From: Cytophagales bacterium
Lineage (GTDB): Bacteria; Bacteroidota; Bacteroidia; Cytophagales; Cyclobacteriaceae
Length of the DNA: 7,279 nucleotides
Reading direction: 5' to 3'
Assembly: GCA_003504855.1 (NCBI GenBank)
Contig: DNZD01000264.1
Coordinates: 1 to 7,279, forward strand
Shown here: piece by piece, positions 3,363 through 7,279 of the stretch
Position numbering within the stretch: position 1 is the first letter of the stretch
Layout: each line of letters begins with the position of its first letter
Notes under the pieces: generated by a model
What the model was told of the DNA's origin: nothing
The model's database searches: none
Seen by the model: the letters and a program-made list of their open reading frames with translations, nothing else
Position numbers and translations under genes: made by a program

Positions 3363-3806
3363 CTATTTTTTGGTGTCGATAGCCTTAGCTTTATCAATGG
3401 TCTCATTGGTGAGGTCGCGCACCTTCATCACGCGCTCCATTTCTGACTCGAGGTATTCCCGTGCCTTTTCCTGATCGGCAGAGTCGGGCAGGGGCTGAAA
3501 TTTATGCATCCAGTCCATCATGGCTGCGTTGGCGGAATCCAACGAGGCCATCATGTTTTCCAGGGATTTTTTCTCGTCAGCACTAATGCCGTTGGCTGCA
3601 GCTTTCTCCTGTAAGGACTGCTTCAGGGTGTAGATGTCCTGCATCTTGGGCATCACTTCATCATGAATGTCCATGATCTGATCCAGCAACACCTTGTTGG
3701 GGTTGTCGCTTTGCGCGGACTCGGTAGCTGCATCATGTTGGTGTTCGCCGGATTTGCCGCAGGACACCAAGGCAACCAGGGCGAGGATATAGAGAAGGTT
3801 CTTCAT
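3363..3806 (-). CDS. Small helical lipoprotein of unknown function
   Basis: Starting at the ATG whose first base is 3806, this is a 147-residue protein with a lipoprotein signal: a short hydrophobic stretch and the lipobox LVSC, placing the lipidated cysteine at residue 16. After it comes a polar, histidine-containing linker (GEHQHD). The remainder is rich in Asp, Glu, Lys, Met and Leu with almost no proline and should be mostly helical, perhaps forming a helical bundle or coiled coil; it includes IHDEVMPKMQDI and SLENMMASLDS. No enzymatic motif is seen. The ATG at 3812, two codons earlier, is also possible. A TTG at 3845 is rejected because it lies upstream of the promoter -7 box. The promoter at 3825-3854 predicts a 5' leader of only about 10-15 nt. 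Small lipoproteins of this general kind are common in Bacteroidota, but I cannot assign a role. Confidence 0.85.
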   Translation of the reverse strand: MKNLLYILALVALVSCGKSGEHQHDAATESAQSDNPNKVLLDQIMDIHDEVMPKMQDIYTLKQSLQEKAAANGISADEKKSLENMMASLDSANAAMMDWMHKFQPLPDSADQEKAREYLESEMERVMKVRDLTNETIDKAKAIDTKK

Positions 3807-3824
3807 GGCCATTATTAGTTTATG

Positions 3825-3854
3825 CAAAGGTAGTTTTTTCACCAACTACCCCAA
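3825..3854 (-). promoter_or_regulatory. Bacteroidota-type sigma-A promoter for the lipoprotein/hydrolase genes
   Basis: Read on the minus strand, TTG (bases 3854-3852) is followed by exactly 19 nt and then TACCTTTG (bases 3832-3825). This matches the known Bacteroidota consensus of a -33 TTG and a -7 TAnnTTTG box about 19 nt apart. Transcription should begin a few bases beyond the -7 box, near 3820-3817, very close to the lipoprotein ATG at 3806. It faces away from the aromatic operon, so the 3846-4102 gap carries divergent signals. Confidence 0.7.
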
Positions 3855-3933
3855 CCCACCCGACTAACAGTAGTTAGTAGCAGCTGAATTTTCCGAAATT
3901 ATTGCGGTGATTGTTGCGGAAGCAGGAATTTTC

Positions 3934-4020
3934 CTCGTTCTTAGCCCCATCAATAAGACATGAGCAACGCGCGATTTTACTTTTATTTTTATTGGACTCA
4001 ATCCTCCGGGGCTGAACGAG
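3934..4020 (+). promoter_or_regulatory. Candidate anti-antiterminator (segment 1:2) pairing around the leader ORF
   Basis: CTCGTTC (3934-3940) is the exact reverse complement of GAACGAG (4014-4020), and AGCCCC (3943-3948) of GGGGCT (4008-4013). Together they give a 13-bp stem interrupted only by a TT bulge at 3941-3942, enclosing the leader start codon and all aromatic codons. It uses the bases needed for the antiterminator, so the two structures exclude each other and this one would favour termination. It can act in RNA only if transcription starts at or before about 3934, which is unproven. The complementarity is seen; the role is inferred. Confidence 0.55.
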
Positions 4021-4034
4021 TAGCGCATTGTTAA
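3960..4034 (+). CDS. Aromatic-rich leader peptide of the pheA operon (24 aa)
   Basis: A 24-codon ORF from ATG at 3960 to TAA at 4032-4034. Codons 5-12 read RFYFYFYW: three Phe, three Tyr and one Trp codon in an unbroken run of seven (3975-3995). The rest (TQSSGAERVAHC) has no aromatic residue. The peptide itself probably has no function; its translation would measure charged tRNA-Phe and tRNA-Tyr, and tRNA-Trp at the last position. The codons GGG-GCT near its middle also form part of the antiterminator arm. There is no strong Shine-Dalgarno sequence; the stretch before the ATG is A-rich (AATAAGACA), which is usual in Bacteroidota. The residues sensed match the genes downstream: pheA, tyrA and the DAHP synthase that feeds all three aromatic amino acids. 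Confidence 0.85.
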   Translation: MSNARFYFYFYWTQSSGAERVAHC

Positions 4035-4069
4035 TCTGACACGAAAAACAAGAAACTCAAAAGTCCCGG
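4006..4069 (+). promoter_or_regulatory. Antiterminator stem (segment 2:3)
   Basis: CCGGGGCT (4006-4013), inside the leader ORF, pairs with AGTCCCGG (4062-4069), which includes the whole 5' arm of the terminator: eight pairs, one of them G-U. The enclosed RNA can stack further helices: GAGT (4018-4021) with ACTC (4055-4058), and TTGTT (4028-4032) with AACAA (4047-4051), leaving a 14-nt loop. Forming this structure prevents the terminator. Segment 2 begins 10 nt after the Trp codon, so a ribosome held at the Phe/Tyr codons should leave it exposed. Confidence 0.65.
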
Positions 4070-4089
4070 TTCAACCGGGATTTTTTTTT
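4064..4089 (+). terminator. Intrinsic terminator of the attenuator, just upstream of pheA
   Basis: TCCCGG (4064-4069) and CCGGGA (4075-4080) form a perfect six-pair stem around TTCAA, which can tighten to seven pairs with a TCA loop. A run of nine T follows (4081-4089). A few upstream A bases (4059-4062) could extend the stem into the T run. There is no gene end here for it to serve on the plus strand other than the leader ORF, and it sits 13 nt before the pheA ATG, so a regulated terminator is the natural reading. Confidence 0.85.
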
Positions 4090-4102
4090 GACTAAAGCAG
4101 GA

Positions 4103-4936
4103 ATGAAGAAGAAGAAACTACAGGTGGCCATCCAGGGAATAGCAGCAAGCTTTCACGAGCTGGCGGCATTTACCCATTTCAAAGAACCTATTGACACCAT
4201 CGAGTGCCTTTCATTTCATGTACTGTGTGAGACGTTAAAAACCAACAAAGCGGACTATGCTGTTATGGCGATCGAAAACTCCATCGCCGGGTCCATCCTT
4301 CCCAACTACTTCCTCCTGCAGGAGTATCACTTTTCGATTGTTGGAGAGTTGTACCTCCCCATTCACATGCATTTGCTTGCGTTGCCGGGCGTTAAGCTTG
4401 CCGACATACGGACCATCGAGTCGCACCCCATGGCCATCCGTCAATGCAGCGATTTCCTCCAACGCCTCTCGGGCGTCGCAGTTCGCGAAAGCGATGATAC
4501 CGCATTGTCGGCACGCAACATCCGCGAAAACAAATTGAAAGACACCGCTGCCATTGCCAACGAAGCAGCCGCCAAAAAATTCGGGCTCGCCATTCTTGAA
4601 AAGAGAATCGAAACCCACAAGAAAAACTTTACGCGCTTCCTCATCCTCACGAAGAACGGTAATGTGCCCGGTGCCAACAAGGCGTCCTTGTCCTTTGAGG
4701 TTGCCAATGAAGCCGGAAGCCTGGCGAACGTACTGACGGCCTTTAAAGAACATCAGATTAACCTGACCAAGATTCAGTCCATACCCATCATCGGTAAGCC
4801 CAAAGAATATTCGATCCATGTGGATGTGGAATGGAAAAAGCGGAAGAACTATGACCTGGCCCTGGGCCAGGTGCTCCGCCAGACCCGCAACCTCAATGTG
4901 TTGGGAGAATACAAGAAATCGGAAATGAAATTTTAG
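4103..4936 (+). CDS. pheA: Prephenate dehydratase (monofunctional, with ACT domain)
   Basis: Converts prephenate to phenylpyruvate with loss of water and CO2, the branch step to phenylalanine, in the cytoplasm. At 277 residues it has the normal size for a stand-alone dehydratase. The catalytic part shows GIAASFHELAAF near the N-terminus, ENSIAGSI at 58-65, SHPMAIRQC at 107-115, DDTALSA, and NFTRFLI with T177-R178-F179, the conserved TRF catalytic motif. An ACT regulatory domain spans about 193-270: GSL at 205-207 corresponds to the usual GAL motif, and QSIP at 225-228 stands where the phenylalanine-binding ESRP motif is usual. The ATG at 4103 is chosen because the alternative TTG at 4088 lies in the terminator's T run. 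AGGA abuts the ATG with no spacing, so it is a poor ribosome site. It is the first gene after the attenuator, 5 nt before the aminotransferase. Confidence 0.95.
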   Translation: MKKKKLQVAIQGIAASFHELAAFTHFKEPIDTIECLSFHVLCETLKTNKADYAVMAIENSIAGSILPNYFLLQEYHFSIVGELYLPIHMHLLALPGVKLADIRTIESHPMAIRQCSDFLQRLSGVAVRESDDTALSARNIRENKLKDTAAIANEAAAKKFGLAILEKRIETHKKNFTRFLILTKNGNVPGANKASLSFEVANEAGSLANVLTAFKEHQINLTKIQSIPIIGKPKEYSIHVDVEWKKRKNYDLALGQVLRQTRNLNVLGEYKKSEMKF

Positions 4937-4941
4937 GACCC

Positions 4942-6132
4942 ATGATTAAAACAGCAGACCGGATAGCACAGGTGGAGGAATACTACTTCAGCAAGAAGTT
5001 AGCTGAGGTACGTGGTCTCGACACACCCGAACTTCGGGTGATTAACCTGGGCATTGGCAGTCCTGACCTTGCTCCCACGGCGGTGACGGTGGCAGCCCTG
5101 ACTGAATCGGCGCACAATCCATCGCACCACGGTTATCAGAATTACAAGGGTATTCCCGCCTTACGACAAGCTATTGCGGCCTTCTACCAAAAGACCTATC
5201 AAGTTGCGCTGGACCCTGAGTCTATGATCCTGCCCCTCATGGGTTCGAAAGAAGGGATCATGCATATCGCCATGGCTTTTGTGAATGAAGGCGATGAAGT
5301 ATTGATTCCGGATCCTGGATACCCAACATATGCTTCTGTGGCCAAATTGGTAGGAGCAAAGGTCCGCACCTACACCATGAAGGAGTCGCTGGAATGGGGT
5401 GTGGACATGGAAGCCCTGCGGGAACAAGACTTGTCGCGTGTGAAAATCATGTGGGTCAATTTTCCGCACATGCCTACTGGTCGTGTGGCCTCCAGGGCCG
5501 AGATGAAGGAATTGGTGGATCTGGCCCGGAAACATCACTTCCTGATTGTCAACGACAATCCGTACAGCCTGATTCTCAATAACGCACCGCTCAGCATCTT
5601 GTCGGTTGACGGTGCTTCCGAGGTAGCACTCGAACTTAACTCATTGTCCAAGTCACACAATATGGCTGGGTGGCGAATCGGATGGGTCGCTGGCAGAAAG
5701 GACTATGTGGAGGCTGTGTTGCGCGTAAAGAGTAACATGGATTCAGGAATGTTCCTGGGTTTGCAGCACGCCGCCGTGGAGGCATTGAAAAGTGATTCCT
5801 CCTGGTTTGAAGAACTGAATACAGTTTATCGCGGACGCAGCGTGCTTGCCCGTAAACTTTTGAAGGAACTTGGTTGTTCCTATGCCGAAGAGCAATCGGG
5901 ATTGTTTGTATGGGCAAAGGCACCACACCATGTAGCCGATGTGGAAAAATGGATCGACGAAATCCTGTATGCCACCAAAGTATTCATAACGCCTGGATTC
6001 ATCTTCGGTGAAACAGGCCGGCGCCACATCCGTGTTTCCTTGTGCGCCCCGATTGAAAAACTGGAAGAGGCGATTGGACGCATCCAGCATTGGAAAGAAA
6101 AAACCCATACCAAAGCCAAAGCTACCGTATGA
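4942..6132 (+). CDS. PLP-dependent class I/II aminotransferase, probably aromatic
   Basis: A 396-residue fold-type I aminotransferase. GIGSPD lies near 37-42, GYQNYKGIPALRQAI follows, and DPGYPTY is in the middle. D205 and Y208 in VNDNPY should contact the PLP ring, SLSKSHNMAGWRIGW carries the Schiff-base lysine K237 with R245, and R364 in HIRVS is the usual substrate-carboxylate arginine. One key site differs: the NNPTG motif reads HMPTG (176-180), putting Met177 where an asparagine normally bonds the PLP hydroxyl. Placed between pheA and tyrA, it most likely transaminates phenylpyruvate and 4-hydroxyphenylpyruvate to Phe and Tyr; prephenate itself is another possible acceptor. The fold resembles the aspartate/LL-diaminopimelate aminotransferase group, so the substrate call rests on context. 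AGGA overlaps the pheA stop codon 3 nt before the ATG, and its own TGA overlaps the tyrA ATG, suggesting translational coupling on both sides. Confidence 0.9.
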   Translation: MIKTADRIAQVEEYYFSKKLAEVRGLDTPELRVINLGIGSPDLAPTAVTVAALTESAHNPSHHGYQNYKGIPALRQAIAAFYQKTYQVALDPESMILPLMGSKEGIMHIAMAFVNEGDEVLIPDPGYPTYASVAKLVGAKVRTYTMKESLEWGVDMEALREQDLSRVKIMWVNFPHMPTGRVASRAEMKELVDLARKHHFLIVNDNPYSLILNNAPLSILSVDGASEVALELNSLSKSHNMAGWRIGWVAGRKDYVEAVLRVKSNMDSGMFLGLQHAAVEALKSDSSWFEELNTVYRGRSVLARKLLKELGCSYAEEQSGLFVWAKAPHHVADVEKWIDEILYATKVFITPGFIFGETGRRHIRVSLCAPIEKLEEAIGRIQHWKEKTHTKAKATV

Positions 6133-7028
6133 AGATCACGATTGTCGGATTGGGATTAATTGGTGGCTCGATGGCCATTGACCTACGCAAGGCAGGCATA
6201 GCCTCCCGTCTGGTGGGTGTGGACCGTTCAGAAGAGCATGGCCAACGTGCGCTTGAACTCGGATTGGTTGATGTCGTCGAGCCGGAAGACCGCGCGCTGG
6301 CAGATGCCGATGTGGTGATCCTCGCCATCCCGGTGAATATCCTCGGTGCTTTGTTGCCCCAGGTAATGGACGTAGTGAAAAAAGATACGGTGGTGATCGA
6401 CACAGGGTCAACCAAGTCACTGATCTGTAAGTCCATCAACAACCACCCTAATCGCCAGCAGTTTGTCGCCGCGCACCCGATTGCTGGTACCGAGAATTCC
6501 GGACCGGATGCTGCCTTCTCCGGGCTGTTCAATGGTATGACCAACATTATCTGTGAGCGTGACAAATCATCAGAACATGCCCTGAGTACCGCTATCCGGA
6601 TTTTTGATGCGCTTGGATTGAAGACCATCTATATGGAAGCCGAAGAACACGATCGGCATGTGGCCTACGTGTCTCACCTGTCGCACGTAAGCTCGTTCCT
6701 GCTCGGCCAAACTGTACTGGACATTGAGAAAGACGAAAAGAACATCTTCAACCTGGCAGGCAGCGGTCTGGCATCCACCGTGCGTTTGGCCAAAAGTTCT
6801 CCCGATATGTGGGCACCCATCTTTGAGCAGAATGCTGAATACCTGGGCCAGGCTTTGGCGGAATACATCATGCACCTGCAAAAATTTCACTATCAGCTGA
6901 TGAAGCGAAACACAAAAGAGCTCTATCGGGTGATGAAGGAAGCAAATAAAATCAGAAAAGTCCTGGATGGTATGGGCGCTGCCAATCGCCCGGCACCAGG
7001 ACCCGCAATAACCCATACTCCATCTTAA
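6129..7028 (+). CDS. tyrA: Prephenate dehydrogenase (TyrA, short form)
   Basis: Oxidatively decarboxylates prephenate to 4-hydroxyphenylpyruvate with NAD(P)+, the branch step to tyrosine. The 299-residue protein begins MKITIVGLGLIGGS, a Rossmann dinucleotide fold with glycines at 7-12. DTGSTK at 91-96 and HPIAGTENSG at 116-125 are family hallmarks, as is HVAYVSHLSH at 177-186 with the conserved histidines. The helical dimerisation part includes GSGLASTVRLAKSSPDMW. The last residues form a proline-rich tail with no C-terminal ACT or chorismate mutase domain. The ATG at 6129 is preferred over one at 6090 because it gives the ATGA overlap with the aminotransferase stop and starts directly at the Rossmann strand. 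Arogenate use instead of prephenate cannot be excluded. The DAHP synthase gene begins 19 nt after its stop. Confidence 0.94.
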   Translation: MKITIVGLGLIGGSMAIDLRKAGIASRLVGVDRSEEHGQRALELGLVDVVEPEDRALADADVVILAIPVNILGALLPQVMDVVKKDTVVIDTGSTKSLICKSINNHPNRQQFVAAHPIAGTENSGPDAAFSGLFNGMTNIICERDKSSEHALSTAIRIFDALGLKTIYMEAEEHDRHVAYVSHLSHVSSFLLGQTVLDIEKDEKNIFNLAGSGLASTVRLAKSSPDMWAPIFEQNAEYLGQALAEYIMHLQKFHYQLMKRNTKELYRVMKEANKIRKVLDGMGAANRPAPGPAITHTPS

Positions 7029-7047: not shown

Positions 7048-7279
7048 ATGCAATTTCAATCTGTTACCACCGCCCTGGGCATTAAGAAGCCACTGATCAT
7101 CAGTGGGCCTTGCAGCGCGGAAACTGAAAGTCAAATGATCACCACCGCCAAGCAGTTGGCGGCCACCGGAAAAGTGCATGTCTTGCGCGCCGGTATCTGG
7201 AAACCCCGGACGCGACCCGGCCAATTTGAAGGTGCGGGCGAACCCGGACTGGAATGGTTGATCGCCGCCAAAAAAGAGA
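7048..7279 (+). CDS. aroF: DAHP synthase, type I-beta, N-terminal part (3' end cut by window edge)
   Basis: Joins phosphoenolpyruvate and erythrose 4-phosphate to 3-deoxy-D-arabino-heptulosonate 7-phosphate, the entry to the shikimate pathway. The 77 codons present contain IISGPCSAET (17-26), with the metal-binding cysteine C22, and LRAGIWKPRTRPGQFEG (46-62), the phosphoenolpyruvate-binding KPRTRP region; both are diagnostic of the I-beta (Bacillus/Thermotoga-like) class. The protein goes straight into the barrel, so it lacks the N-terminal ferredoxin-like regulatory domain of the Thermotoga enzyme. In Bacteroidota this protein often carries a C-terminal chorismate mutase domain, which would supply the prephenate that pheA and tyrA need; whether it does here is outside the window. 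It begins 19 nt after tyrA and so shares the attenuated transcript. Confidence 0.92.
   Translation, partial: MQFQSVTTALGIKKPLIISGPCSAETESQMITTAKQLAATGKVHVLRAGIWKPRTRPGQFEGAGEPGLEWLIAAKKE

Follow-up and report, generated by a model that had tools for sequence, protein, structure and literature searches.

A probable Phe/Tyr-read transcription attenuator in front of the pheA operon of Cytophagales and other Bacteroidota

In enteric bacteria, pheL is a short ORF with Phe codons that lies before pheA and is followed by a terminator. The leader analysed here resembles the corresponding Rfam family (Phe_leader, RF01859) in having a short Phe-coded ORF and a terminator in front of pheA, but differs from it in its mixed Phe/Tyr code and in a match that stays below threshold. 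The window (the whole stretch of 7,279 nucleotides that was analysed) reached 23.4 bits, below the gathering score of 55, in an alignment that spans model positions 1-125 in full; among 20 relatives searched, the highest score was 34.3 bits, and 3 of them gave sub-threshold matches at E up to 0.1. It is possible that the two leaders acquired a similar layout by convergence. The Trp_leader family (RF00513) also remained below its gathering score of 41, at 20.7 bits, and no Rfam family reaches its cut-off in the window.

Leaders that respond to more than one amino acid have been described elsewhere. The ilvB-II uORF of Corynebacterium is, in the available text of the paper, a leader ORF rich in codons for several end products of its operon (PMC10272879). 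Such ilv leaders share the multi-product code with the window leader, but they concern branched-chain amino acids and Actinobacteria, whereas the window carries one aromatic run. For five genomes, none of them from Bacteroidota, candidate uORFs containing both F and Y have been reported ahead of shikimate genes; their likeness to the window leader, Phe and Tyr codons in one short ORF, is drawn from a figure legend (PMC6429828). The initial annotation had set the multi-input leader apart from the single-amino-acid pheL and trpL leaders; as a kind, multi-amino-acid leaders are not new, given the branched-chain ilv leaders and the candidate F/Y shikimate uORFs (PMC10272879, PMC6429828).

As for Bacteroidetes, the accessible part of a transcriptome study of Flavobacterium psychrophilum gives strong clues of leader-peptide attenuation before amino-acid operons, which this part leaves unnamed and which may include a Phe/Tyr-led one (PMC9723704). 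These leaders and the Bacteroid-trp RNA, of which the table entry was used (RF01692), resemble the window leader as cis-regulatory candidates of Bacteroidetes; RF01692 was not among the Rfam matches of the window at E up to 5. A map of Bacteroides thetaiotaomicron contains sORFs reminiscent of leader peptides (PMC7366714). Until it reported one from Firmicutes, a 2010 survey was aware, in its available text, of attenuators of this kind only in Proteobacteria and Actinobacteria (PMC2965389). Our literature search, with supplements and most subscription papers outside its reach, returned no description of a Phe/Tyr leader in Bacteroidota and no experimentally tested leader-peptide attenuator in this phylum. 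Lopatovskaya et al. 2010 reportedly treated attenuation across many phyla and may have predicted a Phe/Tyr leader. The kind of regulator is already known; the Phe/Tyr leader of Bacteroidota, its antiterminator and the breadth of its conservation appear undescribed in the literature searched.

Leader ORF, terminator and the operon behind them

The window contains leuB (partial), leuA, a SET-domain gene and two minus-strand ORFs with no match in Pfam or NCBIfam, and then the aromatic operon on the plus strand:

4103..4936, plus strand: pheA, prephenate dehydratase with an ACT domain (PF00800, PF01842)
4942..6132, plus strand: class I/II aminotransferase (PF00155)
6126..7028, plus strand: tyrA, prephenate dehydrogenase (NF006307, 351.9 bits against a cut-off of 295)
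7048..7279, plus strand: DAHP synthase, truncated by the window end (PF00793)

The leuA gene (748-1911, 387 aa) sits behind leuB (1-708), and its match to the 2-isopropylmalate synthase profile stops at position 382 of 516, the remainder being absent; it possibly encodes a short-type enzyme. The small SET-domain protein gene (1975-2448, PF00856) is located after leuA.

The leader and its terminator lie immediately before pheA:

3960..4034, plus strand: leader ORF of 24 codons from ATG to TAA, MSNARFYFYFYWTQSSGAERVAHC, with the stop codon TAA at 4032-4034; an aromatic leader ORF is also found upstream of pheA in 80/80 close loci
3975..3995, plus strand: codons proposed as the sensor, F Y F Y F Y W (TTT TAC TTT TAT TTT TAT TGG), of conserved aromatic composition
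4059..4070, plus strand: strand 3, the 5′ arm of the terminator (hairpin search and alignment), of which 4062-4069 doubles as the 3′ strand of the antiterminator
4074..4085, plus strand: strand 4, the 3′ arm of the terminator (94.9% of alignment cells paired, both-side changes at 8 of the 12 pairs)
4081..4089, plus strand: nine-T run of the intrinsic terminator, read from the sequence

The coordinates and codons confirm the initial annotation, which had described a 24-codon ORF with seven consecutive aromatic codons and a nine-T hairpin followed 13 nt later by the start of pheA. This start is the ATG at 4103, 13 nt past 4089; a longer version from a TTG at 4088 exists on paper, and the pheA homology queries were started at codon 2 (4106). 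Apart from 3975-3995, none of the six reading frames of the window contains a run of at least five aromatic codons. Dinucleotide shuffles of 3846-4105 (n=5000, three forward frames) gave a run of at least five in 53 cases and of at least seven in none, so the seven-codon run is not due to chance.

The locus was then compared with a close set obtained by a public-genome scan with the window PheA, made of the best 80 of 97 relatives and, with the window, of 81 loci. Their labels are mostly Cyclobacteriaceae, Flammeovirgaceae, Cytophagales and Bacteroidetes, the named genera including Chryseolinea, Ohtaekwangia and Dawidia. A short ORF with 6-8 aromatics in 8 codons was found upstream of pheA in all of these 80 relatives, and the best hairpin after the run was a terminator with a T tail in 81/81 loci, window included (the search yields the best hairpin per locus, and the T-tailed terminator was judged by eye). 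The conservation of a short F/Y/W ORF and terminator before pheA, on which the original proposal depended, is thus observed. The operon was followed in these best 80 of 97 as well: the aminotransferase follows pheA in 80/80, tyrA is present in 77/80 and DAHP synthase in 72/80, the remainder being contigs that end early. The full order pheA-aminotransferase-tyrA-DAHP synthase is found in 72 loci, and the other 8 agree with it up to the contig end.

The close runs are 7-10 codons long; aromatics make up 631 of their 654 residues, divided into 343 F, 265 Y and 23 W, and the other 23 are non-aromatic. Phe (3-6) and Tyr (1-5) occur together in every one of the 81 runs, and both are also present in all 54 runs of the phylum sample described below. 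Trp behaves differently. One W is found in 23/81 close runs and two in none, it is terminal only in the window, and its share of the run aromatics is 3.6% versus 5.1% in the PheA proteins. Of the multi-input sensing put forward at the outset, the mix of Phe and Tyr codons is conserved; the Trp codon, which had been taken to fit the control of DAHP synthase, is not a conserved input of the leader and would be at most an occasional one. One close locus kept in the set (L060) has a one-base shift within a T-rich stretch that interrupts the leader frame after RFYFF; the adjoining sequence resembles that of L045, and the break is possibly a sequencing error in that assembly.

Distribution in the phylum

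The wider sample consisted of 247 genomes centred on that of Chryseolinea serpens (Bacteroidota; L033 of the close set), 215 of which gave a pheA match. From these, 90 loci were examined, 30 as returned by the search and 60 through their fetched upstream regions. The 58 best of them by pheA match (L081-L138) form an unbroken top of the ranking, with the cut-off at 58 set after the result was known, and the 32 weaker ones (L139-L170) are a selection. L081 and L084 repeat L033 and L071 of the close set, and L082-L083 lie near it. The pheA start of L094, L097 and L109 was uncertain under the 8-codon scoring, and the three were retained.

Scored over 12 codons (at least 7 aromatics), a leader stands immediately upstream of pheA in 54 of the 90 loci, all within the 58 best matches, and is absent from all 32 weaker matches examined. 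Over 8 codons, the 90 real regions scored at least 5 in 54 cases and at least 6 in 41; antisense controls scored 5 in 6/90 and 6 in 0/90, and shuffled controls at least 5 in 17/270 and 6 in 1/270. The leader is missing directly upstream of pheA in L112, L123, L131 and L136. In the first three, pheA abuts an upstream open frame and is preceded by three genes, named on L192 only as DAHP synthase, aroB and aroA; directly before the first of these stands a leader that reads MLITAAIYFTFFYFYFRSQSRIGAVYCLAKN or differs little from it, together with a terminator. In these cases, the leader thus goes with the head of the transcription unit and not with pheA itself. Altogether 57 of the 58 best matches have it, 54 directly upstream and three heading a longer operon. 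In L136, no plus-strand stretch with at least 6 aromatics in 12 codons was found within the fetched 10 kb. The frequency of the leader among the best matches, together with a co-varying antiterminator, strengthens the initial suggestion of an attenuator.

Gene order differs under like leaders. In three genomes (L191-L193), the leader heads DAHP synthase-aroB-aroA-pheA. In the larger stretches L183-L188 of the loci L085-L090, it heads pheA, DAHP synthase and two genes resembling aroA and aroC (profile check on L183 alone), and the tyrA and aminotransferase of the window had no match at E up to 0.01 in these 8.4-8.5 kb. The Tyr share of the run was 0.50 in the seven loci with DAHP synthase after pheA (L085-L090, L097) versus 0.37 in the 47 others, a comparison made on a small related sample in which L091, with DAHP synthase in frame with pheA, is counted among the 47.

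An observation of another kind was made in one genome of the phylum sample (G018, L178 1486-2597), where a 20-codon ORF, MNSLRHHHHHHHARTGSSGG, and a hairpin precede hisZ (TIGR00443, above cut-off). This ORF is a candidate His leader. A six-His codon pattern searched in 8 genomes gave 13 matches, of which 12 were made into loci; one was a convincing leader, and none was seen by eye in the other loci that were read.

Competing pairings and a ribosome-masking model

The pairings that involve the leader ORF are built from the following elements:

3963..3972, plus strand: strand 1, AGCAACGCGC, just 5′ of the run, partner of strand 2b (cognate duplex energies)
4006..4013, plus strand: strand 2a, CCGGGGCT, putative 5′ strand of the antiterminator, within the leader ORF; pairs with 4062-4069
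4018..4020, plus strand: GAG, extension of the antiterminator helix, partner of CTC 4056-4058 (86% of cells paired)
4023..4032, plus strand: strand 2b, GCGCATTGTT, partner of strand 1 (per-locus helices)
4056..4058, plus strand: CTC, outside the terminator, partner of GAG 4018-4020 (alignment pairing)

By its sequence, strand 3 can pair either with strand 4, which gives the terminator, or with 2a, which gives the antiterminator. In the window, CCGGGGCT (4006-4013) and AGTCCCGG (4062-4069) form eight pairs including one G-U, and the helix can continue past a small internal loop through GAG:CTC. Although this extension is not part of the terminator, its three pairs all show both-side changes. 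Strand 2a lies in the final part of the leader ORF or right at its end. It is 6-10 nt long in the 81 close loci, and in 50 of them it is identical in letters to the competing stretch of strand 4, as expected for two rivals of strand 3.

The specificity of the pairings was evaluated from duplex energies. In the close set, cognate 2a:3 duplexes had -17.3 kcal/mol, versus -15.4 for swapped partners (partner strand less than 70% identical) and -6.7 for shuffled ones, and on average 34% of the distant partners paired as well or better. This moderate gain follows from the conservation of strand 3 itself. In the 54 phylum loci, the cognate value was -14.2 kcal/mol versus -8.9 swapped and -6.3 shuffled, 40 of the 54 lying more than 2 sd out. 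The 2a sequences differ there, for example AGGATT, GAGGCTTT and CGAATCGG, yet still pair with strand 3; in the operon-head leaders, 2a:3 pairs over 8 bp, and its sequence is altogether different (CGAATCGG/CCGATTCG). Control pairings of strand 1 or 2b with strand 3 gave no cognate gain in the 81 close loci. These comparisons argue for an antiterminator that is present, rivals the terminator for strand 3 and co-varies.

Strand 1 and 2b form another helix. In the close set, the cognate 1:2b duplex had -11.7 kcal/mol versus -8.5 swapped and -5.5 shuffled, 22% of the distant partners on average matching or beating the cognate one, and 58% of the cells were paired on the MAFFT alignment. Before arm 3 is made, its predicted probability was 0.99 in the window and at least 0.5 in 56/81 close loci. 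The signal is weak in the phylum set, where 9/54 loci exceeded 2 sd. Since 2a and 2b are neighbouring stretches and not one shared strand, 1:2b and 2a:3 are not strictly exclusive, and the two could coexist as a pseudoknot.

On the MAFFT alignment, 2:3 slid by -1 was better paired than as written (76.8% versus 69.0%; score 0.122 versus 0.112), which we take as a one-base offset of the window row. Because raw MAFFT pair counts apparently suffer from this offset, per-locus helices and cognate-versus-swapped energies were used in addition.

The minimum-energy fold of 3930-4110 proposed another partner, in which UUAGCCCC (3941-3948) pairs with the 2a region. It was rejected as a switch on inspection by eye, the stretch being unconserved in relatives. 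The stretch may lie within the promoter. TAnnTTTG is a promoter motif of Bacteroidota; it was matched at 5 or more of 6 positions in 52/81 upstream regions versus 38/81 control stretches, a weak difference from which no promoter is claimed.

From the start of the last aromatic codon to 2a there are 10-15 nt in 80/81 close loci, the exception being L014 (8 nt), where the run was counted with a later Phe. The same range holds for 41/54 phylum loci, and the three operon-head leaders have 15 nt. No credible 2a was found in L119, L133, L137 and L138 of the phylum set.

We then used an equilibrium model in which the RNA beneath the ribosome is masked, the downstream RNA is folded to the end of strand 3 and pairs across the ribosome are forbidden; the leading edge lay by default 13 nt beyond the first A-site base, and a helix was counted as formed from a probability of 0.5 upwards. 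When the first, middle or last aromatic codon occupied the A site, 2a:3 was predicted to form in 77, 81 and 80 of the 81 close loci, versus 0/81 for the stop codon. The phylum set gave 51/54 on the last aromatic codon and 2/54 on the stop codon. Placing the leading edge anywhere from 10 to 15 nt left the last-codon figure of the close set at 80-81/81; it dropped to 75 at 16 nt and to 36 at 17 nt. For 2a:3 in the window, the predicted probability was 1.0 on each aromatic codon, 0.97 on the first codon after the run and 0.08 on the second. In this model, 2a is left free by a ribosome that pauses within the run but not by one at the stop codon; within its assumptions, the model shows that the parts of the proposed switch fit together.

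Folding without a ribosome also favoured 2a:3, with a probability of at least 0.5 in 65/81 close loci. The terminator hairpin was not predicted to be more stable than the 2a-to-3 segment in 52/81 close loci, among them the window (-15.2 versus -20.6 kcal/mol). Since ribosome-free folding favours 2a:3, termination would have to depend on the position of the ribosome and on timing; as far as these predictions go, a simple trp-like scheme leaves the untranslated state unexplained.

Proposed mechanism and alternative explanations

These data support the view that the leader is a ribosome-mediated transcription attenuator of the aromatic operon, read by Phe and Tyr codons, to which we assign a probability of about 0.88. 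The locus combines a short ORF with codons for amino acids that are end products of the following operon, an intrinsic terminator between this ORF and the first gene (81/81), an antiterminator that competes for the terminator strand, as seen from sequence and co-variation, and, in the model, a spacing that frees 2a at paused codons (80/81) versus the stop codon (0/81). Comparative evidence makes attenuation a well supported candidate mechanism. When charged tRNA-Phe and tRNA-Tyr are ample, the ribosome would reach the stop codon and cover or pass 2a; strands 3 and 4 would then pair, and transcription would stop at about 4089. When either tRNA is scarce, the ribosome would pause in the run with its leading edge just short of 2a, which would stay free and pair with strand 3 once this is made; no terminator would form, and pheA, the aminotransferase gene, tyrA and the DAHP synthase gene would be transcribed. 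Because Phe and Tyr codons alternate, shortage of one or the other would give the same outcome, as in an OR gate. The 1:2b helix is likely an early pause or protector hairpin melted by the ribosome.

An attenuator that senses Phe alone, with Tyr codons tolerated because TTT/TTC and TAT/TAC are one base apart, seems unlikely to us. F does exceed Y in the runs (343 versus 265 in the 81 loci), and the F:Y:W proportions of 54:42:4% are near the 53:42:5% of the PheA proteins, without Tyr enrichment over this background. Single base changes from TTT, however, also give Ser, Cys, Leu, Ile and Val, and only 23/654 residues are non-aromatic; every run of the close and phylum sets holds both F and Y, and tyrA is within the operon in all 77 of the 80 close loci whose contig is long enough. 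We regard as highly improbable that the peptide itself acts, through nascent-chain arrest of the ribosome or as a small functional protein, with no signal of amino-acid supply. Conservation of the ORF and the recurrence of residues beyond the run in many loci (QS/QT, GL, ERESVC) would fit this reading, but these residues overlap 2a and 2b, so RNA pairing can account for them; moreover, F, Y and W come in varying order (RFYFYFYW, RFYFWFYFY, FFYFYYFF, RFYFSNSFYFFF), and the distance of the stop codon from the end of 2a ranges from -1 to 21 nt in 80/81 close loci.

Intergenic intrinsic terminators are common, and the hairpin and T run are truly present. That they merely terminate some upstream unit, with the ORF and the pairings as by-products, is nevertheless scarcely credible, since the adjacent ORF (3363-3845) has the opposite (minus-strand) orientation, and between 3347 and 4059 no ORF of at least 60 aa ends on the plus strand. 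The leader ORF, its spacing to 2a and the co-variation of 2a:3 would be unexpected for a plain terminator, and three genomes with an internal pheA carry the whole unit before the first gene of the operon.

Returning to the Phe/Tyr attenuator, a broader proposal, which we hold tentatively and at somewhat less than even odds, is that a single ancestral OR gate of this type is spread across much of Bacteroidota and follows the DAHP synthase and pheA unit whichever gene comes first. It would use a split strand 2, with 2a for the antiterminator and 2b for the early hairpin, possibly with a pseudoknotted intermediate, in contrast to the three-way switch of trp.

Bacteroidota rank among the major bacteria of the gut and of the environment. 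The leader offers a concrete and widely conserved candidate with a base-level model that designates the sensing codons, the switching strands and the site where read-through would change. As Phe and Tyr codons can be changed separately, two-input codon sensing is cleanly testable here.
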